From assembly GCA_021780615.1 (NCBI GenBank), contig JAJXYJ010000019.1:1-32858 (forward strand): 32,858 nucleotides of DNA, given 5' to 3'. The stretch's first letter is position 1; every line of letters begins with the position of its first letter. This document shows, piece after piece, positions 2,971-25,858 of this stretch. The position numbers and the translations under genes were made by a program. Below the pieces are notes generated by a model. That model ran no database searches, had not been told where the DNA came from, and saw nothing but the letters and a program-made list of their open reading frames with translations. This stretch comes from a bacterium. Its GTDB lineage: Bacteria > Patescibacteriota > Minisyncoccia > UBA6257 > JAGOQP01.

Positions 2971-3180
2971 AATACTTAGTTTTATATGCATATAGTATAC
3001 ACCATAGTGTTTTGTGAAGGAAATACAGCTGTGCATAACGGATAATGGGTAATACAATTTCGAATTTCGATTTACGAATTTCGAATGGAAGAGATTAAAA
3101 GATAGTAATTAGGGAGAGAATTTCGAATTTTGAATGAAAGAAGGGGAATTAGTAATTAGTAAGCGGTAATTAGTAAAGTG

Positions 3181-10987: not shown

Positions 10988-11333
10988 CTTTTTATTTTTT
11001 TTATTTTAAAATTTTTATTTTTAAAATTTTTTTATTTTTTAAAAAATCGTATAAAAAAATAATGATACGCGCACATTAAAAAATAAATGAGCAGACAACC
11101 ACTGCATACGACAATCATTCATACAATAATCACTCCAAAATAAAAACACTCATAACAAATGGAGGTATCTTAATGCATAGAGTGTGATACACACAGCATA
11201 CAACGTTCCATAACATACTTTCTTGTACGCACATAAAAAGTTTTTATTGAATTTCATAAAACGTATGTATTCCACAAGAACATACAATAATCTCTACACA
11301 TCTCTATACCTCTAAAATCATACATACAACCTA

Positions 11334-11545: not shown

Positions 11546-11684
11546 GCAATAAGTATAGCACAATATATATATGAAGGTACATGGGAAATAAGAAGTATTA
11601 AGGAATAAAGAGCGAGAAAGAAAAGCCCAAATAGCAAGCACCAAAAAACAAATAATCCGCCAGACGCCGGATCAAATACTAATA

Positions 11685-11745
11685 ACCAATAGCCAAAACG
11701 AATTTGTTTTGAATTTGGTATTTTGAATTTATTTGGGATTTTAGC
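11685..11745. repeat. Intergenic 7-bp-periodic array
   Basis: TTTGAAT|TTGGTAT|TTTGAAT|TTATTTG register. Confidence 0.5.
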
Positions 11746-11824: not shown

Positions 11825-11920
11825 AAAAAAGGACAAAGTCTCCCTTAATAAATGGAAACTTTGCACTCAACAAGGTTCATTATACTCCTTTTTTTGAAAA
11901 AGTCAAGAGGGCACAAGCAA

Positions 11921-11992
11921 TCAGTAATCGGTAACTAGTAACTGGAAACTTTTTACTGATTACTGATTACCAATTACTAGTTACTATTTATA
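11921..11992. repeat. Intergenic 7-bp-periodic inverted array
   Basis: TAATCGG|TAACTAG|TAACTGG|AAACT.. then TTACTGA|TTACTGA|TTACCAA|TTACTAG|TTACTAT. Confidence 0.7.
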
Positions 11993-14499: not shown

Positions 14500-14530
14500 A
14501 GAGGGTTAGTATAACACAAAATAAGAAAAA

Positions 14531-14635
14531 ATAATCAATTTTCAATTTTCAGTTTTCAATAAATTTTGAAATGAATCAATTGAATAATGTATTGAAATCC
14601 GCCAGCTGGTGGAGGTCATTGATCATTAAAAATTT
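14531..14635. repeat. Heptad-array intergenic element, copy A
   Basis: ATTTTCA|ATTTTCA|GTTTTCA..., CCGCCAGCTGGTGG palindrome, TCATTGA|TCATTAA|AAATTTT. Confidence 0.75.
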
Positions 14636-15245
14636 TGCGTCTTCGCAAATGCTTCCACACCCACCACGCAATGCCAGCAACTATAGCAACACCTATCACG
14701 ACATCAAATTTTTTAATGTATGGCTCCAATACCTGCCATCGATCCCCCAACATCCAGCCGGCATATGTTAACCCCACTACCCATATAAATGAACCGGCAA
14801 TAGTCATCAGAGAAAATTTTTTCTTGTCCATTTTGCCAATCCCGGCAGGAAGGGATATGAAGGTACGGATAACGGGCAACATACGAGAAAAAAAGACCGA
14901 TGCATCACCATAACGTTGGAACCAGCGCGAAGCGCGTGTAAGCGTTTCATCGGAAAAAAGATTTGATAAGATGCGGTACTGCTTCCGATGAGCGACAAGC
15001 CAGTCAGCAATCGCATATGAAATAACTGATCCTAACCAGCTCCCAATCGTTCCGGCAAAAACAACTCCCCAAAAAGAAAAAACGCCTTGCGCCGCAAGAA
15101 ATCCTGAAAAAGGCATGACCACTTCGGAAGGAATCGGTATGTTGCAACTATCAATAAGCATAAGCACCACAATACCGACATAGCCAATATGTTGTATAAA
15201 GGACATAATCCAGACAATGAGTAATCCAAGTAAAGAAGAAAACAT
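14616..15245 (-). CDS. DedA/SNARE-associated family membrane protein
   Basis: IPIPSEVVMPFSGFLAAQG, GTIGSWLGSVISYAIADW, SRMLPVIRTFISLPAGIGKM. Confidence 0.92.
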   Translation of the reverse strand: MFSSLLGLLIVWIMSFIQHIGYVGIVVLMLIDSCNIPIPSEVVMPFSGFLAAQGVFSFWGVVFAGTIGSWLGSVISYAIADWLVAHRKQYRILSNLFSDETLTRASRWFQRYGDASVFFSRMLPVIRTFISLPAGIGKMDKKKFSLMTIAGSFIWVVGLTYAGWMLGDRWQVLEPYIKKFDVVIGVAIVAGIAWWVWKHLRRRKIFNDQ

Positions 15246-15277
15246 AAAGGTAGTTGAAAGTTATAAAGTTAAAAGCG

Positions 15278-15368
15278 TAAGAATTTAAAATTTTAAAATT
15301 AATCATCCACCGACTGACGGAGAAAATTCAATAATCATTAGTCATTAAAAATTGAAAATTCACATTGA
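15278..15368. repeat. Heptad-array intergenic element, copy B
   Basis: CCACCGACTGACGG module then TCATTAG|TCATTAA|AAATTGA|AAATTCA. Confidence 0.65.
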
Positions 15369-15374
15369 CGCATC

Positions 15375-16445
15375 TTAACTCTTATGCGCCTTCAGTGCCG
15401 CTATCGCATCTTGGGGAAGAATCGGATTTTCTTGAATGCCCGTACCCAATTCAAAACCAGCATCAACGCCAATGCGAGTAAAACGGGGAACAATTCGAAT
15501 GTACCAATGGTAAGAGCGTTGTTGTGTGCTCCGCAAACCATGAAACGGTGCCGTGTGTACATACCAATTATAATCAGTCATACCATGCTCCTCTAAGGTG
15601 TGGAGGGCATCATGAAGTGCGCGGACAACACCATGCATAACATCAGGCGATGCAGTCTCAAACGACGCACTATGTACACGAGGAATCACCATTAATTCAA
15701 ATGGTTCACGAGAAGTGTAGGAAGCGGAAACAATTGCATGCGCATCACGATACAGTGTTCGTGCGGCCGCATGGTGTGCAGTCTGTTCATGGCACAAAAA
15801 ACACGCATGATGCTTCGTATAAAAAGAAGCGGCGTGCAATAGTTCATGACGAATGTGCCGCGGTACTACCGGAAGAGAAATCATCTGTAGGTGCGAATGA
15901 GCAATACTTGCTCCCGCCAAAGGCCCCTGATTTTGAAATAAAGCGCTGTAGTATATGCGCGTATCACGCATAACATCATGCACCCGCTGCTGAATTGCTT
16001 CAAATACTTCACCTACGCGTTCCTCCGAATATGACCCTAACGTTTTTTTATGATCACGCATAATGAGAAGATCATGGTACCCATAACCGGGAAGATCGTC
16101 TGCACCGGCGACATACGAGTACCCCGCCGCCTCCAACGGTTCAAGAGCGGGAAATTTATTTTCCAATACCTGCACACGCCACTGACTCAGTGGTTGGTTG
16201 GCAGGAAGCCAAAAGTGAGGAGCTTTATTACCCGCCGCCTGTGGGTCATCAAAAGGACACGTGGTCGCAGAAACTTTTTGTGGCGGCACCGTTACAAAAT
16301 CATACGACTTTGCCGGATCAAATCGCTTAGGAACAAAAAGAACCCATTCACCCGAAAGCACATCGTACCGCAAACGCGATGCGCTATGCAGATGACGAGC
16401 GGAAATATTATTGGGATGTGGTTGTTGCCGGTGTGGTTGTTGCAT
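15375..16445 (-). CDS. galT: Galactose-1-phosphate uridylyltransferase family
   Basis: SRLRYDVLSGEWVLFVPKR, AHSHLQMISLPVVP, paired HIT-like domains; overlaps mrdA 3' end. Confidence 0.8.
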   Translation of the reverse strand: MQQPHRQQPHPNNISARHLHSASRLRYDVLSGEWVLFVPKRFDPAKSYDFVTVPPQKVSATTCPFDDPQAAGNKAPHFWLPANQPLSQWRVQVLENKFPALEPLEAAGYSYVAGADDLPGYGYHDLLIMRDHKKTLGSYSEERVGEVFEAIQQRVHDVMRDTRIYYSALFQNQGPLAGASIAHSHLQMISLPVVPRHIRHELLHAASFYTKHHACFLCHEQTAHHAAARTLYRDAHAIVSASYTSREPFELMVIPRVHSASFETASPDVMHGVVRALHDALHTLEEHGMTDYNWYVHTAPFHGLRSTQQRSYHWYIRIVPRFTRIGVDAGFELGTGIQENPILPQDAIAALKAHKS

Positions 16446-18330
16446 ATAGGGAAGTACTTGTTGCCTGAGAAGTCACATTGACTCTGTGATCATAATACCA
16501 TTGCATTACTTCTTGCGCTACTGGGACCGCGTTAAGACTTCCTTGCACCGAATCTTCAATGAGCACCACAATAGCGATGGTAGGATTGGGAACCGGCGCA
16601 TATGCCACCACAAAAGCGTTTTCTTTTGTATTATTTTGAATTTGCGCGCTTCCTGTTTTAGCGGCAATAACCATAGGCACCACACGCATGGGGTAGGCAG
16701 TACCATAATCTTTGGTAACTGTATCAAGCATCCCCTGCTGAACTACCGCAAGGTGAGCAGGATCCTTCATGGTAATTGGCGTCAGCGTTGGAGAGTGCAC
16801 CACTGTCGCATCAGTCGCATCAGTTCCGATACGGGAAGCGATAAAGGGCGTGGGGAGCTTACCGCCATTCGCAATTGCGGAAATGTAACGAATAAGTTCA
16901 AGAGGAGTAATAACTAAATCACCCTGACCGATAGATACGTTATAGGTATCTCCAATGCGCCATATTTGGCCGGTACGATCTTCTTTTTCTTGCGGTGTCG
17001 GAAGGCTTCCTGCATTTTCACCCGGAAGATCAATGCCGGTCTCTTTATTAAGATCGAATTTTTCCCAATACGCATGGAGCATATTAATCCCCAATCCTTT
17101 TTGTGTTCCAAAGCCACCTCCCACTTCATAGAAATAAACATCACTCGATCGAGCAAGGGCAGAATACATATTGACCCATCCCTGAGGCCTCCAATCCAAA
17201 AACCGCGTTGGATGCGCCGGATCATATGGATTAGGAAGGTCCAAATATCCGGGAGAATAGATTGAAGCGAGCGGATCAATGATATTTTCCTCGAGTGCCC
17301 CAAAAGCAACTAATGGTTTAATGGTTGATCCAGGACTATAGAGCCCGGCAATTGCACGGTTAAACATCGGACGAGTCGGATCGGTAAATAATGACGATGT
17401 TAAATTATTACCATCAAAAGACGGCATACTGATAAGAGAAAGAATTTCTCCTGTTTGCGGATTAATGGCAATACCCGCTCCCGAAGTCCGGTTTAACTGC
17501 CCTAAGCGCGTCACCAATGCCGTATAAAATTCTTGCTGTAAAGCGGCATCAATTGTCGTATAAATATTATCACCAGCAACAGGCTGATGAAGCGTTTTTT
17601 CATCAATAACATTGCCGTGGGCATCGCGAAAACTTATCTGCTCCCCATTAACCCCCCGCAACTGAGTGTCATATTGTTTTTCAAGTCCCACCTTGCCAAT
17701 TTCATCATTGAGACGCAACGATGGATTACTGGTTAAATCCGATTGGTTCACCAATCCGATGTATCCTAAAATATGAGAAAATGCCGGTCCATCAAGATAG
17801 TTGCGCGCAAAACCATTTTCAATAACCACCGCGGGATCATTGAGTTTTTTTAATGCGATAATGCCACTTAACGGCACCGCACGCGCAATCGGATAGTATG
17901 CTTGTTGCTCTAAGTCGGTGGCCAACACCTTCTGTTTTATATCAGCAACATTAAAAGGAACAATTGCCGCAATCGTTGCCAGCTCACTATCCAAGTGACT
18001 CTTATCTTTAAGAATTTGTGAGAGGTTTAAGTTCACATCAAAGCTCGGCTCATTGGAAACTAACGGCACTCCATAGCGATCATAGATAATGCCCCGCGGA
18101 GCCTGCAAAATTGTTTCCTGTCCCGCATTGGCCAGCGCGCGAGATTGATAAAAATCTTGCTTAAGATAGGCAAGCTGAAACACCTTTAAAAAAACCAACA
18201 GTACCAAAGCGGCGGCAACCCATGCAAAAATACGAAAACCGCCTCCTGTAATGGGACGCTCAATAATATCGAGCCCTTCGGACAAATCATCCAAAACGGC
18301 ATCTTCTAAGAAAATCTCTTTTTTAGCCAT
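16408..18330 (-). CDS. mrdA: Penicillin-binding protein 2 (transpeptidase)
   Basis: SPGSTIKP, ARSSDVYFYEVGG, AAKTGSAQ active-site motifs; N-terminal TM. Confidence 0.93.
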   Translation of the reverse strand: MAKKEIFLEDAVLDDLSEGLDIIERPITGGGFRIFAWVAAALVLLVFLKVFQLAYLKQDFYQSRALANAGQETILQAPRGIIYDRYGVPLVSNEPSFDVNLNLSQILKDKSHLDSELATIAAIVPFNVADIKQKVLATDLEQQAYYPIARAVPLSGIIALKKLNDPAVVIENGFARNYLDGPAFSHILGYIGLVNQSDLTSNPSLRLNDEIGKVGLEKQYDTQLRGVNGEQISFRDAHGNVIDEKTLHQPVAGDNIYTTIDAALQQEFYTALVTRLGQLNRTSGAGIAINPQTGEILSLISMPSFDGNNLTSSLFTDPTRPMFNRAIAGLYSPGSTIKPLVAFGALEENIIDPLASIYSPGYLDLPNPYDPAHPTRFLDWRPQGWVNMYSALARSSDVYFYEVGGGFGTQKGLGINMLHAYWEKFDLNKETGIDLPGENAGSLPTPQEKEDRTGQIWRIGDTYNVSIGQGDLVITPLELIRYISAIANGGKLPTPFIASRIGTDATDATVVHSPTLTPITMKDPAHLAVVQQGMLDTVTKDYGTAYPMRVVPMVIAAKTGSAQIQNNTKENAFVVAYAPVPNPTIAIVVLIEDSVQGSLNAVPVAQEVMQWYYDHRVNVTSQATSTSLYATTTPATTTSQ

Positions 18331-18809
18331 AAACCGAAGGCAAAGAGGATCATGCCAACGGCAGTATTATAGAGAAATTCCATCAAAAATGGAAACGCCA
18401 CAAATGTATGGGCAAAAGAAAACACCAACCAGAAAAGAGCGGTTCCCACGAGAATAGCACCTATAAAAAGAATCGGCGCCGGACGAAGAACGAATGATCG
18501 TATGATAAAAAAGACAACGACACCCATGATGCCAATAAAAAGCAGTTCATAACTGGGAGATGGTGCGTACTTCGCCCATAATAATTCCGCCAGCAACCAC
18601 ATCATAAACACATACGCATCATCAATAAAAAATGCCAGTGCAAGCGCGCCGACCAACAACACATCAGGACGAATCACCAACGGCATATTCGCAAGAAAAG
18701 AAAGCGCCATGATTCCTGCCAAAAGCCACGCGCCCCGAAGTATCTCCTGCCGTAATGGTGATGAGTGTGTCATGTTCCTAGGGGTGGACTTCCACGTTAC
18801 GCACATCAT
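18306..18809 (-). CDS. mreD: MreD-like membrane protein
   Basis: 167 aa polytopic membrane protein between mreC and mrdA; assignment by synteny. Confidence 0.65.
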   Translation of the reverse strand: MMCVTWKSTPRNMTHSSPLRQEILRGAWLLAGIMALSFLANMPLVIRPDVLLVGALALAFFIDDAYVFMMWLLAELLWAKYAPSPSYELLFIGIMGVVVFFIIRSFVLRPAPILFIGAILVGTALFWLVFSFAHTFVAFPFLMEFLYNTAVGMILFAFGLWLKKRFS

Positions 18810-19461
18810 TCATGCTGTAAGAAAATTGTATAGATGTCTGAAGAAATGCTCCTAATGTATCAGGAGTGATATCACGCACCGTGCCAATGGTAACCCCATA
18901 CATAAAATCTTTTGATGCGTTTACAATGAGATCCCCAGGAGCAATGGGCTTTGTTTTATCAATAAGAGTAACCAACGGACTCACTCCTCCTTTTAAAAGT
19001 CCATCGACTTGTTGGGCGCCAATACGCACCGGAAGAGAAAATGCCGGATCAAAAACAGTCATCACTTCACTCTCGTGAGGAGTCACTCGTGTCACCTGAC
19101 CAATGAGAACTCGAGAAGGAATAAAAACACCCTCACCAGTCATAACACCGTCAAGACTTCCCTTATCAAGAAAAATCCTATTTTTGGTATTGAACGGATA
19201 GGCCGAAAAAACCTGCGCGGAAATCTCCCCTGTTGAAGAAGCAATGGCAATATGTTGCTGGAGCGCAAAGAGTTCGTTTTTTAACCCATCGTTCTCCTGA
19301 TGCAACGTGGTATTTTCTTCGACGATACTGGAAAGAGAAAAAATGTGAGACAATGATGAAAAAATTTCAAGAGGTTTTGCAATGAAAAACCCCGTCCCAA
19401 TCAGTATCACAAGGATACCGGAAATACTCATAAGAATCACACGCTGATACTGCTGGTGCAT
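18778..19461 (-). CDS. mreC: Rod shape-determining protein MreC
   Basis: TM, coiled coil, beta domain with RVLIGQVTRVTPHESEVMTVFDPAFSLPVRI; follows mreB. Confidence 0.9.
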   Translation of the reverse strand: MHQQYQRVILMSISGILVILIGTGFFIAKPLEIFSSLSHIFSLSSIVEENTTLHQENDGLKNELFALQQHIAIASSTGEISAQVFSAYPFNTKNRIFLDKGSLDGVMTGEGVFIPSRVLIGQVTRVTPHESEVMTVFDPAFSLPVRIGAQQVDGLLKGGVSPLVTLIDKTKPIAPGDLIVNASKDFMYGVTIGTVRDITPDTLGAFLQTSIQFSYSMNDVRNVEVHP

Positions 19462-19463
19462 AG

Positions 19464-20504
19464 TTATTCAAGAATAATAGGCTTGAGAGCAAGCGCAAAG
19501 ACGTCCATATATGCATCGATATTTTCGGCGGCAATACCGGTACCCCGCACCACACAGGTGAGCGGATCATCGACAAGAATCGTTTTGACTGAAAGTTCTT
19601 TTTCAATAAATTCTCCAAGCCCTCGCAATAAACTACCTCCTCCTGAAAGGTAAATGCCCCGCTTGAGAATATCTCCCGAAAGTTCCGGGGGTGTTTTTTC
19701 TATAATATCTTTTATAGATTCAACCATGTGCTTAAGCAATGGCAACAACGTTCCGCGTACTTGCGTGTCTTTAATGAGTACTTCACGAGGAAGTCCTAAC
19801 GACAAATCCCGTCCTGAGACGGCTAAATCAAGTCGCTCAGCCAATGGTAACGCGGAACCAATTTCTATCTTAATGCGTTCCGCGGTCGGTTCACCGATGG
19901 CGATTTTAAATTCGTCCCGCACAAAACGCATAATTTCATCGTTCAACTTATCACCGGCAACTTTAAGACTTCGGGATACCACCACACCCCCCATAGAAAT
20001 GACGGCAATCTCCGTGGTCCCTCCGCCAATATCAACAATCATGTTTGCGGTCGGCTCCCCAATCGGCAATCCGGCACCCAACACTGCGGCAATGGGTTCT
20101 TCCAAAAGATATACGCTTGATGCCCCCGATGAAATAACCGCATCCTCTACCGACTTGCGTTCAACTTCAGTCAAATTAGTGGGAACGGCAACCACCGCAC
20201 GCACATATCGAAACAACGAATCACGCTTTATCTTTTTTATGTAGTTTTTAAGAATTTCCTGTGTCATAAGGAAATCAGAAATAACGCCGTTGACTAACGG
20301 ACGAATAACCTCAATATGCGCCGGTGTACGGCCCATCATACGCTTTGCCTCGTTACCAATCGCCAATACCTGACTCGTTTTGGTATTTAACGCGATGACC
20401 GTCGGCTCATTGACCACAATTCCCTCTCCTTTGACATACATCAGCGTATTTGCTGTTCCCAAATCAACACCAATATCAGTCTTTAACCCATTCAATATAC
20501 CCAT
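19464..20504 (-). CDS. mreB: Rod shape-determining protein MreB
   Basis: DIGVDLGTANTLMYVKGEGIVVNEPTVIAL, GGGTTEIAVIS. Confidence 0.97.
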   Translation of the reverse strand: MGILNGLKTDIGVDLGTANTLMYVKGEGIVVNEPTVIALNTKTSQVLAIGNEAKRMMGRTPAHIEVIRPLVNGVISDFLMTQEILKNYIKKIKRDSLFRYVRAVVAVPTNLTEVERKSVEDAVISSGASSVYLLEEPIAAVLGAGLPIGEPTANMIVDIGGGTTEIAVISMGGVVVSRSLKVAGDKLNDEIMRFVRDEFKIAIGEPTAERIKIEIGSALPLAERLDLAVSGRDLSLGLPREVLIKDTQVRGTLLPLLKHMVESIKDIIEKTPPELSGDILKRGIYLSGGGSLLRGLGEFIEKELSVKTILVDDPLTCVVRGTGIAAENIDAYMDVFALALKPIILE

Positions 20505-20515
20505 ATAAATAAAGA

Positions 20516-21766
20516 TTATGCCTTAAAATACTGCGTTATGAACGAAAAATCAACCTGTGAAGCATCGGGCTTTGCCCGTTCTTTAAATTCCACACGTTCT
20601 CCCGTTTTTGCACTGACCACGAGCCGCACAGGAATACCGATAAGATCGCTCTCGGCAAATTTTTCTCCAGCAGAAATTCCTTCACGATCATCATAGAGCA
20701 CCTCAATACCTTCGGCCCGCAGGCGGTCATACACCCCCTGCGCCTTGGCTAAAATATCTTTTTTTTGAGCTTCGTCCGCCGGGACGATGGCAAGCAGGTG
20801 TGCTTGAAATGGAGCAACGCTCGCGGGCCATAGCAAACCCTTTTCATCATGAAAAAGTTCGGCAATAATACCCATGAGCCGAGAAATACCAATACCGTAG
20901 CACCCCATAATAACCGCATGCGATGTGCCGGCATGATCGGTGTACTGAAGTTTAAAAGGATCAGAATATTTTGTCTTCAGTTGAAAAATATTTCCCACTT
21001 CGCTGGCGGCAACGACCGTCAACGGTTTCCCGCACGTGGGACACGCATCGCCATCCTGCGCTTCATTAATTTCTCTGTTTTGCGCGAATTGGCACACGGC
21101 ACAATACACGATACGATCTTCGCCGCTGGCAACCTGTACTTGAAATTCATGGGAGAACTTAGAAAATGTCCCTCCTGATGCCTCAACTAAGAGCGCGTCA
21201 AGTCCGAGGCGTTTGAATATTGTTGTATATGCGACAATGGCTCGTTGGTAATACATTTCCAAATCAGCTTCGTCAGTATGAAATGAGTACAGATCTTTCA
21301 TTAAAAATTCTCTGCCACGCAGAAGCCCCGATTTTGCACGCGCTTCATCGCGAAACTTTGTTTGTATCTGATACAGCGCCATGGGAAGATCTTTATAGGA
21401 AAAAATCGCCCGCTGTGCCACGGGCACCACAATTTCTTCGTGAGTCGGTCCCAGGGCATACTCTTTTTTATCACGCGCAATAACCTTAAAAAGCACATCC
21501 AACGAATCCCACCGGCCCGTCTGCTGCCAATTTTCACGAGGATGCAGGACCGGCATTAAGACCTCTTGCGCACCCAATGCATTCATTTCATCACGAACAA
21601 TACACTCGATATGGTGAAGCACCCGGAGCCCCAAAGGAAGAAAGGTATACACCCCTGCCATAAGTTTATCAATAAAACCGGCGCGGATAAGAATCTGCGC
21701 ATTGTAGGCCTCTTCATCTTTTGGAGCTTCTTTGCGAATAAAATGAGATAAGTGTGATTGAAGCAT
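20516..21766 (-). CDS. proS: Prolyl-tRNA synthetase, short form
   Basis: GVYTFLPLGLRVLHHIE, ALGPTHEEIV, IQTKFRDEARAKSGLLRGREFLMKDLYSF, GCYGIGISRLMG. Confidence 0.96.
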   Translation of the reverse strand: MLQSHLSHFIRKEAPKDEEAYNAQILIRAGFIDKLMAGVYTFLPLGLRVLHHIECIVRDEMNALGAQEVLMPVLHPRENWQQTGRWDSLDVLFKVIARDKKEYALGPTHEEIVVPVAQRAIFSYKDLPMALYQIQTKFRDEARAKSGLLRGREFLMKDLYSFHTDEADLEMYYQRAIVAYTTIFKRLGLDALLVEASGGTFSKFSHEFQVQVASGEDRIVYCAVCQFAQNREINEAQDGDACPTCGKPLTVVAASEVGNIFQLKTKYSDPFKLQYTDHAGTSHAVIMGCYGIGISRLMGIIAELFHDEKGLLWPASVAPFQAHLLAIVPADEAQKKDILAKAQGVYDRLRAEGIEVLYDDREGISAGEKFAESDLIGIPVRLVVSAKTGERVEFKERAKPDASQVDFSFITQYFKA

Positions 21767-21778
21767 AGGGATAAAATA

Positions 21779-21885
21779 ATTTTACAATTTTCAATTTCCA
21801 ATTTTCAGTAAATTTTCAATTGATTAATTTTAAAATTTAAAAATTCAATGATCATTGGAAATTGGTCATTGATAATTGCTGAGTC
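21779..21885. repeat. Heptad-array intergenic element, copy C
   Basis: TTTTACA|ATTTTCA|ATTTCCA|ATTTTCA...TCATTGG|AAATTGG|TCATTGA|TAATTGC. Confidence 0.8.
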
Positions 21886-22927
21886 ATAGCAAATGCATCA
21901 CGTCCCGAACAGTGATAAACAATAATAGACCAATAACCAAGAGGAATCCAATGCCATTGACGACATACTGTACTTTGGCGGCAATCGGCTTGCGACGAAT
22001 CTTTTCAGCAATCACAAACACCATGCGCCCCCCATCCAGCGCTGGAAAAGGAAATACATTCAATGCCGCCAAATTAATAGAAATGAGTGCCGCCAAATTG
22101 AGCACGTATACAACTCCCATTGATGATGCCTGTGCGGTTGCCTGATAAATTCCCACCGGGCCCGATAAATAAGAAAGCACACTAGGGCCGCCAAAAAGAC
22201 TGGCAATGAGCTTGAAAAGCAACATAAAGATCAGCGAAAAAATCTGAGCCGCCGAAACAAGACCATCCCCGAATGCGGCAAAGAACGGTTCTTGCGGCGC
22301 CCCACCGCCAGCAATACCAATACCCAACGCACCTTCCCCTTGTGGCGGATGCACGCGCGGCACAACCGACAAAGCAACAGATGCGCCATGGCGAATCACC
22401 TGAAAAGAAAACTGCGACCCCGCATGCGCATTCACTGCCGCAATAAAATCATCAGGATTAGAAAACCCGACAATAACATCACCCTGTTGCATTCCCGCAC
22501 TCAGTGCCGGAGAATCAGCGGCAATGTCGGTGACTACCACAGTCGGCCGAGCGCCAATAATAAAGACAAGCGTTAACAAGAGCCATCCGACCAAAAAATT
22601 CATCACCACCCCTGCCACAAGCACGATAATTTTTTGCCATGCCGGATGGGATGCAAAAAACCGCTCGCGGGGAATCGCCTTTTGGTCTTCGGTCAGTTCT
22701 TCATCAATGCCATTTTCCCCCGGAATCTTTACATATCCCCCTAAAGGAATCGCGTTAATACTCACTAGTGTCTCACCTCTCTTCTTTGACCACAGGCGGG
22801 GCGGAAATCCAATACCGAATTCTTCCACATACATCCCAAATTTTTTTGCGGTAAAAAAATGCCCCCACTCATGGGCGATAATCAATGCGGCAAGTATGAC
22901 GATGAAAATAATAATATCGAGAAACAT
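21884..22927 (-). CDS. rseP: Site-2 protease / RseP family zinc metalloprotease
   Basis: AHEWGHFFTAKKFG, PDZ segment, NVFPFPALDGGRMVFV. Confidence 0.93.
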   Translation of the reverse strand: MFLDIIIFIVILAALIIAHEWGHFFTAKKFGMYVEEFGIGFPPRLWSKKRGETLVSINAIPLGGYVKIPGENGIDEELTEDQKAIPRERFFASHPAWQKIIVLVAGVVMNFLVGWLLLTLVFIIGARPTVVVTDIAADSPALSAGMQQGDVIVGFSNPDDFIAAVNAHAGSQFSFQVIRHGASVALSVVPRVHPPQGEGALGIGIAGGGAPQEPFFAAFGDGLVSAAQIFSLIFMLLFKLIASLFGGPSVLSYLSGPVGIYQATAQASSMGVVYVLNLAALISINLAALNVFPFPALDGGRMVFVIAEKIRRKPIAAKVQYVVNGIGFLLVIGLLLFITVRDVMHLL

Positions 22928-22948
22928 GGTAAAATGGGTGGTAAGGGA

Positions 22949-23095
22949 TATGTAGTAAGTAGTAAGTAGTAAGTAGTAGGAAGTAGGAAGTAGGAGAAAA
23001 CTAATTTTTGAATTTTTAATTTTGTAATTTTATAAATAAATCTTAATGTTTAAAACATTAAAAATTTAAAAATTATAAAATTTAAATATTATCTC
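22949..23095. repeat. Intergenic 7-bp-periodic arrays upstream of rseP
   Basis: (GTAGTAA)3 GTAGTAG GAAGTAG GAAGTAG, then TTTTGAA|TTTTTAA|TTTTGTA|ATTTTAT. Confidence 0.7.
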
Positions 23096-23097
23096 AT

Positions 23098-23646
23098 CTA
23101 CTCATTTATCTCTGCGGTCTTTTTTTCTACCAAGACATCAACATCCTTATTAAATACATCCATAACCTGCTGCATCTTTTTTTCAAGTTCAAAGGTATCG
23201 TCCTTGGTTAACTTCCCTTCTTTTTCTTGCGCGGTTATTTCTTTTTTAATTTCATCACGCGCCGCTCGCGATTTTATACGTGCATCCTCCGCCTTCGTGC
23301 GAACAATTTTAATAAACTCATCGCGCCGCTCCTGTGTGAGTGATGGCAAATTAACATGAATGACAGTACCCTCTTGAGCGGCCATGCTATTAAGGCGGGC
23401 GCTGACAGCCGCAGTAACAGCTCCCACTGCGGCACCATCCCACACTGAAATCTGTATCTCACGGGGAGGAATAATGCTAATCGATCCCAACTGTTTAAGG
23501 GGCATTTTTTGGCCGTAGTATTCAACCGAAATATCTTCAACTAACGCACTTGTCGGACGCGAACCACGAATAGAGGCAACATCATCCTTAAAAAACTTCA
23601 GAATATCAGCGATTTTTTTCTCTAATGTATGTATAAAGGTGTCCAT
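23098..23646 (-). CDS. frr: Ribosome recycling factor
   Basis: ASIRGSRPTSALVEDISVEYYGQKMPLKQLGSISIIPPREIQISVWD, TQERRDEFIKIVRTKAEDARI. Confidence 0.97.
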   Translation of the reverse strand: MDTFIHTLEKKIADILKFFKDDVASIRGSRPTSALVEDISVEYYGQKMPLKQLGSISIIPPREIQISVWDGAAVGAVTAAVSARLNSMAAQEGTVIHVNLPSLTQERRDEFIKIVRTKAEDARIKSRAARDEIKKEITAQEKEGKLTKDDTFELEKKMQQVMDVFNKDVDVLVEKKTAEINE

Positions 23647-23652
23647 GGCGAT

Positions 23653-23681
23653 AGTATACGATAGGAGTATCGCAAACGCAA
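23653..23681 (-). promoter_or_regulatory. frr promoter TTGCGT-17-TATACT, near-leaderless
   Basis: -10 at 23653-23658, ATG at 23646, leaving 6 nt between. Confidence 0.6.
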
Positions 23682-23703
23682 ACAGCTCCTTGTAAGGAGC
23701 TGT
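23682..23703 (-). terminator. Hairpin between the holB/BNR unit and the frr promoter
   Basis: ACAGCTCCTT ac AAGGAGCTGT, perfect 10-bp stem, abutting the frr -35. Confidence 0.55.
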
Positions 23704-23734
23704 GTGCAGAAAAACAAAACAAATTAAGAATATA

Positions 23735-24805
23735 TTAATAGGTAAGGAGCACTAACCCATCACCTTCAAAAAAGAATCTGGTTGGTGTAAAAGATGTGGC
23801 AGTATCTTGAGTCTTCCAGCTCGTTCCCCCATCCGTACTCATAAACAATCGTCCATCAGAAAAGACATATACGGTTGTACCATGTACCTCAAACGCATTG
23901 ATGGTACTGGAAAGTAGTGGGATATGTTTTAACACGACAAATGTTTTTCCCGCATCATCGCTACGCCAAATGCCTTCGCTTGTCTGCACATAAAGTACTC
24001 CATTGGTATCAAACGCCATATGAATCACCGACGCCGATGAAGCAAAGAGCCCACCTCCCGGAACAATCACTTGGCTAAACGGTCCCGCCAACGACTCACC
24101 GGTAATCAAAACGCCCGACTTTAAAAGAATATACCACTCATTATTATGACTCACCATGCGCGCCACCGGTGACTTGAAAACATACACCACTTCACTGGTA
24201 TGCATCTTCCACGAATACTGGATCACTTGTCCATTGGAAAGCCCCACATAAAGATACGATGCGGTAGGGACCATGTCGTATGCGGCTTCGTGTTTAAAAT
24301 TAAGCAGGGGCGTCAGGGTAAAAAAATTATCCGTCGTTTGATACATAACCCCTTCACCATTTTGAAAAACAGATATCAAATAAGTAGTGCTTCCCGTCTG
24401 TACAATACGCAAAACACTGGCATCAGATGTTATTTCATTATTTGAAGACGTAAACTGGTGCCATGTTAGTCCGCTATCAAAACTCAAAACCATACCATGA
24501 TCAGTGGCAAGATAGAGTGTACGCGGTTGTGTTGTTGTTTGAGTTGCCACATCAAACACGTGCAAGGGTGTATTGCTCTGTATCGTTGCACTGTGCACAT
24601 TGGCAAATGTGTCGTATGAAATAAGAAAGGTGCCATTCTCTGCGGGAGCGCCGGTAAATGCCGATGCGGCCGATGCCAACAATGTTCCACCCGATCCTGA
24701 GGGTAACAGCCCTGCGATTCCCGTGGGATTCAAAAGAGAAATACCCCAAAAGACGCCGATGAAGGCGATGATAATAAGAAGCGAAAAAGTCAGTGTATCG
24801 TCCAT
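23735..24805 (-). CDS. Membrane-anchored BNR/Asp-box (YCF48/sortilin-like) beta-propeller protein
   Basis: N-terminal TM; repeats SFDSGLTWHQF, SDDAGKTFVVL, STDGGTSWKTQ. Confidence 0.85.
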   Translation of the reverse strand: MDDTLTFSLLIIIAFIGVFWGISLLNPTGIAGLLPSGSGGTLLASAASAFTGAPAENGTFLISYDTFANVHSATIQSNTPLHVFDVATQTTTQPRTLYLATDHGMVLSFDSGLTWHQFTSSNNEITSDASVLRIVQTGSTTYLISVFQNGEGVMYQTTDNFFTLTPLLNFKHEAAYDMVPTASYLYVGLSNGQVIQYSWKMHTSEVVYVFKSPVARMVSHNNEWYILLKSGVLITGESLAGPFSQVIVPGGGLFASSASVIHMAFDTNGVLYVQTSEGIWRSDDAGKTFVVLKHIPLLSSTINAFEVHGTTVYVFSDGRLFMSTDGGTSWKTQDTATSFTPTRFFFEGDGLVLLTY

Positions 24806-25668
24806 ATGATATGTTTAAGGTGAATACGTTTACTTAACGTAAATAATTGATCTTGTGCCATAAGGCGAACCACTGCGTGGAGTGCGGCGGCATGACGAAC
24901 AACATCACGATGCAACACTAAAAGCAATTGTTCAAAAAAGGCAGTCCAGTGAGCGGGACTTTGACTGACAAAGTCATACACCGCATCACTGATGGCGCGG
25001 CGCTCGATGGAAGTTTTTCCCACCGCACCGGCACGTAACGCAAGTTGTTGCGCGTGGGCGACAAGTGATAACGTATCACTCGCAGACGCCACTACACGAC
25101 CTATCCTGCCATAAGCATCCTTGATCGAAGTAACGTCCTTTATTATATCATATTTACTACAAAAGTCAAGCATCTCCTTATCACTCAAGGGAGGGACATA
25201 TACCTTCACAAAACGTGAGGCTACAGGCGGCAAAAAGACACTCGCATCATAAGCGGTGGCTATAATAAGACTATGCGCAGGGGGCTCTTCAAGAATCTTA
25301 AGGAGGGCATTTTGAGCCTGATCAGTAAGCCAATGTGCATCACGAATAATCACACTCCGATATGGAGAGAGCGCCGGCGTCTCATAGAGAAAGTGCTCAA
25401 TATCACGAACCGCATCAATACCCACACTTTCAGTAGGCGCGCCATCCCCCACCTCACGTACCATGGCAGAAAAATCGATAACATGCGTTTCTTGCAATGG
25501 TCGAGTAGGCACATCAAATACTCCTGTTTCAAGATAAGTGGCAAGCGCGTGTGCAAAGTGAAACTTTCCCGTCTGTGGCTGTCCATAGAAAAGATATGCA
25601 TGCGAAAGTGCCCGCGCATCAGCGAGTCGTTGAAATGTCTTTTGCAAATGATCAAATCCGTAGAGCAC
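24790..25668 (-). CDS. holB: DNA polymerase III delta' subunit
   Basis: HAYLFYGQPQTGKFHFAHALA (Walker A), QAQNALLKILEEPPAHSLIIATA; GTG start. Confidence 0.88.
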   Translation of the reverse strand: MLYGFDHLQKTFQRLADARALSHAYLFYGQPQTGKFHFAHALATYLETGVFDVPTRPLQETHVIDFSAMVREVGDGAPTESVGIDAVRDIEHFLYETPALSPYRSVIIRDAHWLTDQAQNALLKILEEPPAHSLIIATAYDASVFLPPVASRFVKVYVPPLSDKEMLDFCSKYDIIKDVTSIKDAYGRIGRVVASASDTLSLVAHAQQLALRAGAVGKTSIERRAISDAVYDFVSQSPAHWTAFFEQLLLVLHRDVVRHAAALHAVVRLMAQDQLFTLSKRIHLKHIIWTIH

Positions 25669-25756
25669 AATACGTAAAGAGTGGTGCTTAAATATTTTTT
25701 GTATAATTTAGAGAACAAGGCTTATCCCAAAGATACCATACAAAAATCTGCATTCT

Positions 25757-25858
25757 TTACGTAATTTACAATGTACAATTTTCAATTTACAATTAATTTC
25801 TTAATTAAATAATTTTAAAATTAATTGATCATTGGTTATTGATCATTGAAAATTTTCT
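25757..25858. repeat. Heptad-array intergenic element, copy D
   Basis: ATTTACA|ATGTACA|ATTTTCA|ATTTACA...TTGATCA|TTGGTTA|TTGATCA|TTGAAAA. Confidence 0.8.

Follow-up and report, generated by a model that had tools for sequence, protein, structure and literature searches.

Intergenic 7-bp-periodic quasi-palindromes in a 0.6-Mb Patescibacteria genome

What are the four AT-rich intervals of about 100 bp that separate genes in contig JAJXYJ010000019.1 (GenBank assembly GCA_021780615.1), a Patescibacteria contig whose 32,858 nucleotides were analysed as a whole and are called the window here? We refer to the intervals as copies A (between tpiA and dedA), B (dedA and galT), C (proS and rseP) and D (holB and mreB2). 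An earlier note on this DNA had described each as two opposed 7-bp-periodic arrays around an AT-rich core, and had left a binding array, a roadblock or terminator and a mobile repeat as options. We find that each copy is a single imperfect inverted repeat of 7-bp units (heptads), that period and layout recur in the source genome, and that in related genomes the words of the heptads change at sites where an array is kept.

Lag-7 matches were counted in the four intervals and compared with 5000 dinucleotide shuffles. The counts were 45 against 29.4 for copy A (z 3.3, P 0.0008), 47 against 27.4 for copy B (z 4.8), 62 against 33.3 for copy C (z 6.0) and 53 against 34.5 for copy D (z 4.2), with P 0.0008 or lower in all four, which bears out the proposed 7-bp period. 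No significant excess over the shuffles was found at lags 5, 6 or 9 in the four intervals, and lag 8 was the only neighbouring lag that showed an excess too, for copy C and for copy B when its interval was widened. The idea of a 21-bp helical phasing, in which every third unit would face alike, is not supported, the lag-21 z values of copies A to D being 0.4, 0.0, 2.1 and 1.3.

The source genome is a 612-kb assembly of 22 contigs, 96% complete, and genome-wide counts in it refer to about 350 kb (57%), namely the window and 18 further stretches. Here 88 lag-7 periodic segments were found, 73 of them intergenic, while lags 4-6 and 8-13 gave 4 to 27. Chains of at least three identical 4-mers numbered 256 at spacing 7 and 10 to 61 at spacings 5, 6 and 8-11. 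Period 7 dominates the intergenic DNA of this genome, which at 0.6 Mb still spends about 5% of that DNA (2617 of 54849 bp) on strictly 7-periodic segments. Being tandem, 7 bp long, in excess over other periods and intergenic, the units belong to the intergenic heptameric tandem repeats.

An element has CARTNNN repeats in its left arm and their reverse complement, NNNAYTG, in its right arm, with AATTTTAAAATT between the two. What had been taken for two different arrays, of ATTTWCA and TCATTGA type, is one vocabulary: the TCATTGA type is the reverse complement of the CAATNNN type, and each element is therefore one imperfect inverted repeat. A pattern search found 16 two-armed elements in the 350 kb, and all 16 have the order CART...AYTG with the arms pointing to the core; the opposite arm order gave no element and neither did a reversed-word control. 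Since an inverted repeat is identical from both strands, the common polarity of the four copies follows from how an element is built and holds no information on the direction of genes. A polarity directed by the genes is also rejected by the data, as the arm words show no difference between transcription directions in the source genome (chi2 p 0.47) and the elements with distinguishable arms in another Patescibacteria genome, G123, are about 10 '++' and 8 '--' relative to genes. Near the 88 arrays of the source genome we found 23 good inverted partners, 8 direct ones and 1 in shuffled flanks, and near 88 arrays from other Patescibacteria families 31 inverted, 6 direct and 1 in shuffled flanks. 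Convergent array pairs, as Xanthomonas has, are present in the source genome.

From the sequence, the half-element has the consensus NAATTTT-CAATNNN-CAATNNN-CAATNNN-CAATAAATTTT, in which the variable triplets are mostly TTT, TTC, TTA, GAT, GAC or TAT. Copies C and D have the regular form, delimited by sequence and by pattern matches. In copy C the left arm (21778-21812, plus strand) has words at 21785, 21792, 21799 and 21806, the centre AATTTTAAAATT lies at 21826-21837, and the right arm (21845-21878, minus strand) consists of NNNATTG words, the last ending at 21878. In copy D the left arm (25763-25796, plus strand) has words at 25769, 25776, 25783 and 25790, the centre AATTTTAAAATT lies at 25811-25822, and the right arm (25823-25855, minus strand) has NNNATTG words ending at 25848 followed by AAAATT. 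Copy A, found by sequence and pattern matches, has CAAT/CAGT words at 14536, 14543, 14550 and 14557 in its left arm (14529-14563, plus strand) and a short right arm (..TCATTGATCATTAAAAATT; 14614-14634, minus strand). The last codons of dedA (stop codon 14616-14618; protein end ...RRRKIFNDQ) do run into this right arm, as had been noted. The left side of copy B (15252-15302), previously called degenerate, is more than a worn CAATTTT arm; its heptads belong to another word family (GTTATAA/GTTAAAA, AGTTAAA type) and lead into AATTTTAAAATT, and the right arm of this copy (15322-15362, minus strand) reads AATAATC ATTAGTC ATTAAAA ATTGAAA ATT.

Copies A and B also hold a 16-bp GC-rich quasi-palindrome, TCCGCCAGCTGGTGGA at 14598-14613 in copy A, which is met again at other places of the source genome and within elements of G123, and TCCACCGACTGACGGA at 15306-15321 in copy B, where a minus-strand terminator scan reported it as a stem. 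This TCCGCC..GGCGGA type (TCCGCCAGCTGGCGGA and variants) has 13 matches in the 350 kb, and in the two copies and at loci L176 and L229 it is nested inside heptad elements, in the source genome and in G123. It gives the impression of another dispersed repeat, of smaller size.

The CART elements are accompanied in the 350 kb by at least five other 7-bp word families (TTACNNN, AATTTCG, AATTTTT, GTAGTAA and AAATCCC/ATTTGG heptads), and every type is present in the window. The count of four elements was thus too low, as the window has five more heptad tracts: AATTTCG/AATTAGT heptads at 3056-3176, opposed AAT-rich heptads of the ATTTGG/AAATCCC family around CAAAACGAATTTGTTTTG at 11675-11745, opposed GTAAYNN/TTACNNN heptads of the TTAC family at 11911-11984, which form a strong hairpin (z -4.3/-4.6), GTAGTAA/AGTAGGA heptads at 22952-22995, and TTTTGAA/AATTTTT heptads around AATGTTTAAAACATT at 23002-23092. 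A long intergenic T/A-rich tract at 10990-11044 (TTTTTTATTTTAAAATTTTTATTT...) has a periodicity of 15-17 and is not of the heptad kind.

For comparison between genomes, 384 Patescibacteria genomes were searched for at least four consecutive CART heptads, and 85 of them carry such runs, with words that are specific to the genome. Elements of a similar kind are spread over the Patescibacteria. The reversed pattern is not a neutral control for this search, because reversed CART words (TRAC) are a heptad family themselves. No second genome of the source genus was found; the nearest relatives with names of the window ProS are from Wolfebacteria and other Patescibacteria metagenome-assembled genomes. 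In family relatives the orthologous proS/rseP gap holds AATTAGA heptads (G008), GTATTAA/ATACTTA heptads (G009) or none (G010), and in two further genomes of the family only a few bases separate the genes.

The closest view is given by G123 and G062, sister species of one genus whose aligned DNA is about 80% alike. Their elements are a clear dispersed family: the copies are nearly identical, share fixed ends and have a centre that resembles CAAAC-ACGACGTCGT-TTTG, and have therefore spread as units. In G123 they combine terminal inverted repeats (AATTTTCAAT...ATTGAAAATT) with dispersed near-copies, as miniature inverted-repeat transposable elements (MITEs) do. Three G123 regions were aligned with G062, the alignment of repeats being approximate and sites being called shared or changed by eye, and gave 16 array sites. 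Nine are shared; the words agree at four of these and differ at the other five (for instance ATTGAAA against ATTAGAA, CATTCGT against GTACCCT, or a CAATTTT-type element against one of AAATCCC type that has the same palindromic layout). The other seven are one-sided; they include a clean 67-bp absence, and some fall inside larger indels. Few empty sites are clean, and by eye no target-site duplication was seen. A greater variability of left than of right arms in G123 is suggestive in both samples, which are both biased by the finding patterns, and is not claimed. In another family, G171 has elements of similar layout with a CAAAC...GTTTG centre, and one-armed copies.

Other repeats were met in the same two genomes. 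G062 has a clean 143-bp insertion relative to G123 (contig C22, locus L216, minus-strand coordinate 17939) with terminal inverted repeats CCCAGTA-TACAACTGCCAA, which is without heptads and looks like an ordinary MITE. In G123, two more dispersed repeats of about 110-140 bp (L201:18556-18692 and 18880-18990) occur at more than 20 places with 81-100% identity, many of them at contig ends.

The arms of an element pair poorly with each other. Of 39 mirrored positions, 2 carry the same variable triplet, fewer than the expected 18% (P 0.008). When folded, native arm pairs of the source genome reach -16.9 kcal/mol against -21.7 +/- 1.24 kcal/mol for arms swapped between elements, with none of 10000 permutations as weak, and those of G123/G062 reach -19.8 against -23.2 +/- 1.18 kcal/mol (P 0.0002). 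The effect is absent in G171, where the arms are less cleanly delimited. Elements nevertheless fold better than dinucleotide shuffles (z -3.4 in the source genome, -6.3 in G123), and the palindrome is therefore real yet kept imperfect. Instability of palindromes is the simplest cause; as a caveat, the loss of perfect palindromes in short-read assembly could give the same result.

Gene calls in the source genome came from a simple hexamer scorer, so the following gap counts are approximate. Arrays occur in 31 of 92 codirectional gaps of 80-300 bp and in 1 of 33 other gaps (P 0.0003), and the preference holds over all gaps of at least 80 bp (P 0.009). None of the 12 convergent gaps of 80-300 bp has an array. 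The elements are AT-rich quasi-palindromes and have neither the GC-rich stem with T-run nor the enrichment in convergent gaps of intrinsic terminators; at the elements, a terminator scan reported two stems only, the GC palindrome nested in copy B and a stem of 6 pairs next to copy A, and a search of the window with Rfam gave nothing at gathering score. The roadblock or terminator option is accordingly weak. A strong terminator-like stem (ACAGCTCC-TTAC-AAGGAGCTGT) at 23682-23703 on the minus strand, downstream of the rrf neighbourhood, looks ordinary and unlike the AT-rich heptad elements. Pfam generally agrees with the gene names around the elements (TIM, VTT/DedA, class II synthetase, M50, delta' and MreB); the exception is 'galT' (15375-16445), whose weak match to HIT/DUF4921 and GalP_UDP_transf makes the name uncertain.

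Among the three options, the mobile MITE-like repeat is the best supported, by dispersed near-copies in a related genome, by variable presence (sister species differ at 7 of 16 array sites) and by variable occupancy of the proS/rseP gap. We give about an even chance to the reading that copies A-D are dispersed, non-autonomous, non-coding quasi-palindromes of about 100 bp, similar to repetitive extragenic palindromic (REP) elements, which are tolerated, copied and then rewritten in place. An element would consist of two opposed arms of 3-5 heptads, of one vocabulary, around an AT-rich centre (ACGACGTCGT-like in G123). Whole or half elements may be copied into new intergenic places, and slippage, or conversion from other copies, may later change all the heptads at one place jointly; period and site would then persist while words change. 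Gaps between codirectional genes would be the main home of the elements, regardless of the direction of transcription, and in mRNA the elements would form imperfect, REP-like intercistronic hairpins with mild consequences or hardly any. Mismatches between the triplets probably persist because a perfect palindrome is unstable. Several points weigh against this reading. No enzyme was identified (the parent element was sought via Y1_Tnp only) and no target-site duplication was seen by eye, the copies in the source genome have diverged too far to serve as proof that they were copied as units, different words at one site could also come from independent birth at a few permissive places, and in G123 the codirectional preference is not above background (18 of 22 elements against 27 of 39). 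A bolder version, which we put forward tentatively and think unlikely, is that Patescibacteria make and remake opposed arrays at fixed intergenic sites by a process that advances in 7-nt steps whatever the sequence, while selection opposes complementarity between the arms of an element, so that the conserved thing is the 7-phased quasi-palindromic shape and not the sequence.

Slippage, with a preference of the polymerase or of the slippage machinery for 7-nt steps, could instead give rise to arrays independently wherever neutral DNA permits it, the inversion coming from hairpin-templated strand switching. The period is fixed and the words are free across genomes, long perfect arrays exist (about 15 GAAGATT units at L157 in G304), and a polymerase footprint has been proposed as the cause of bacterial heptamers (discussed in PMC4692102). 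We regard this as unlikely, as copying is needed to explain the many places in G123 that hold nearly identical complete elements, whose centre is not made of heptads, and strand switching predicts similar arms, whereas native arms are less complementary than swapped ones. The near-invariant CAAT keywords of the half-element, followed by positions that vary, would suit a DNA- or RNA-binding protein that reads YCART every 7 bp and loads from both sides, at a nucleoid, roadblock or regulatory site; sites are retained between sister species, and for the paired arrays that Geobacter metallireducens has on opposite strands a role as IHF/HU-type sites was suggested (PMC2700814). But the CART conservation is partly imposed by the pattern used to find elements, words change at conserved sites, there is no candidate protein, and this small genome has no fewer than five unrelated word families side by side, so that as many proteins would be needed. 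A binding array is thus quite improbable.

The position between codirectional genes and the folding above shuffles would both suit a selected RNA hairpin between co-transcribed genes, serving as terminator, processing site or protector of mRNA 3' ends. This is very doubtful given the arm-swap result, which contradicts a hairpin RNA with compensatory changes in two lineages (source genome and G123/G062), the mismatch of mirrored triplets, the few arrays in convergent gaps and the AT-rich stems without T-tract. Arms that avoid mutual pairing oppose the usual RNA-hairpin reading of palindromes. Least probable is that the elements are REPINs, pairs of REPs moved by a RAYT (Y1_Tnp) transposase. Half and inverted-pair forms do resemble REP and REPIN, and Y1_Tnp genes occur in 7 of 10 further genomes rich in heptads (G123, G062, G171, G186, G385, G086 and G304; L242-L257, RAYT-like, mostly 145-250 aa). 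They are absent from the other 3 and from the source genome (96% complete), and at the 16 RAYT loci examined, in six other genomes, the 200 bp to either side of the open reading frame are free of heptad arrays. Having failed both tests, RAYT transposases are not likely to be the copying route. REPs are not known to carry 7-bp arrays.

Heptamers have been reported for years to be overrepresented in bacterial genomes, and no cause is generally accepted. As the arrays described here keep their period while their words are replaced at orthologous sites of sister species, comparison can separate slippage from gene conversion and from protein recognition. In the open-licence literature on candidate phyla radiation and Patescibacteria genomes we found no description of such repeats.

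Intergenic heptamer arrays are known from cyanobacteria as STRR (short tandemly repeated repetitive) heptamers. The GGGAATC heptads of Xanthomonas likewise are 7-bp tandem units, dispersed and mostly intergenic between aligned ORFs, with 70-75 cases per genome of two close arrays in convergent orientation, and keep their gene context in two species while length and sequence vary (PMC4692102). They differ in being one G-rich, quadruplex-forming word: the source-genome units are AT-rich without G-runs, many words occur per genome, words change wholesale at shared sites, and imperfectly pairing arms surround a defined centre. The 'global regulator binding sites' of Geobacter metallireducens, classes 1-3, are short tandem octa- or heptanucleotide arrays, dispersed and paired on opposite strands at variable distance as here, but with other words, insertion sequences near class 1, and IHF/HU binding as a proposal (PMC2700814). 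TAACTGA heptads of Beggiatoaceae, cyanobacteria and Bacteroidetes are also intergenic, and the TTAC/CAGTAAT family of the source genome is close to them in sequence; they form direct arrays of fixed orientation just upstream of start codons with almost no inverted pairs (PMC4679880), whereas our elements are inverted. REP and REPIN elements with RAYT are small palindromes of intergenic DNA that occur singly and as inverted pairs (PMC3116915, PMC2817692), a likeness shared by our elements, although the source genome is without RAYT and the RAYTs of relatives are unflanked by heptads. The Patescibacteria elements are an AT-rich, multi-word, word-switching form of the known bacterial heptad arrays.

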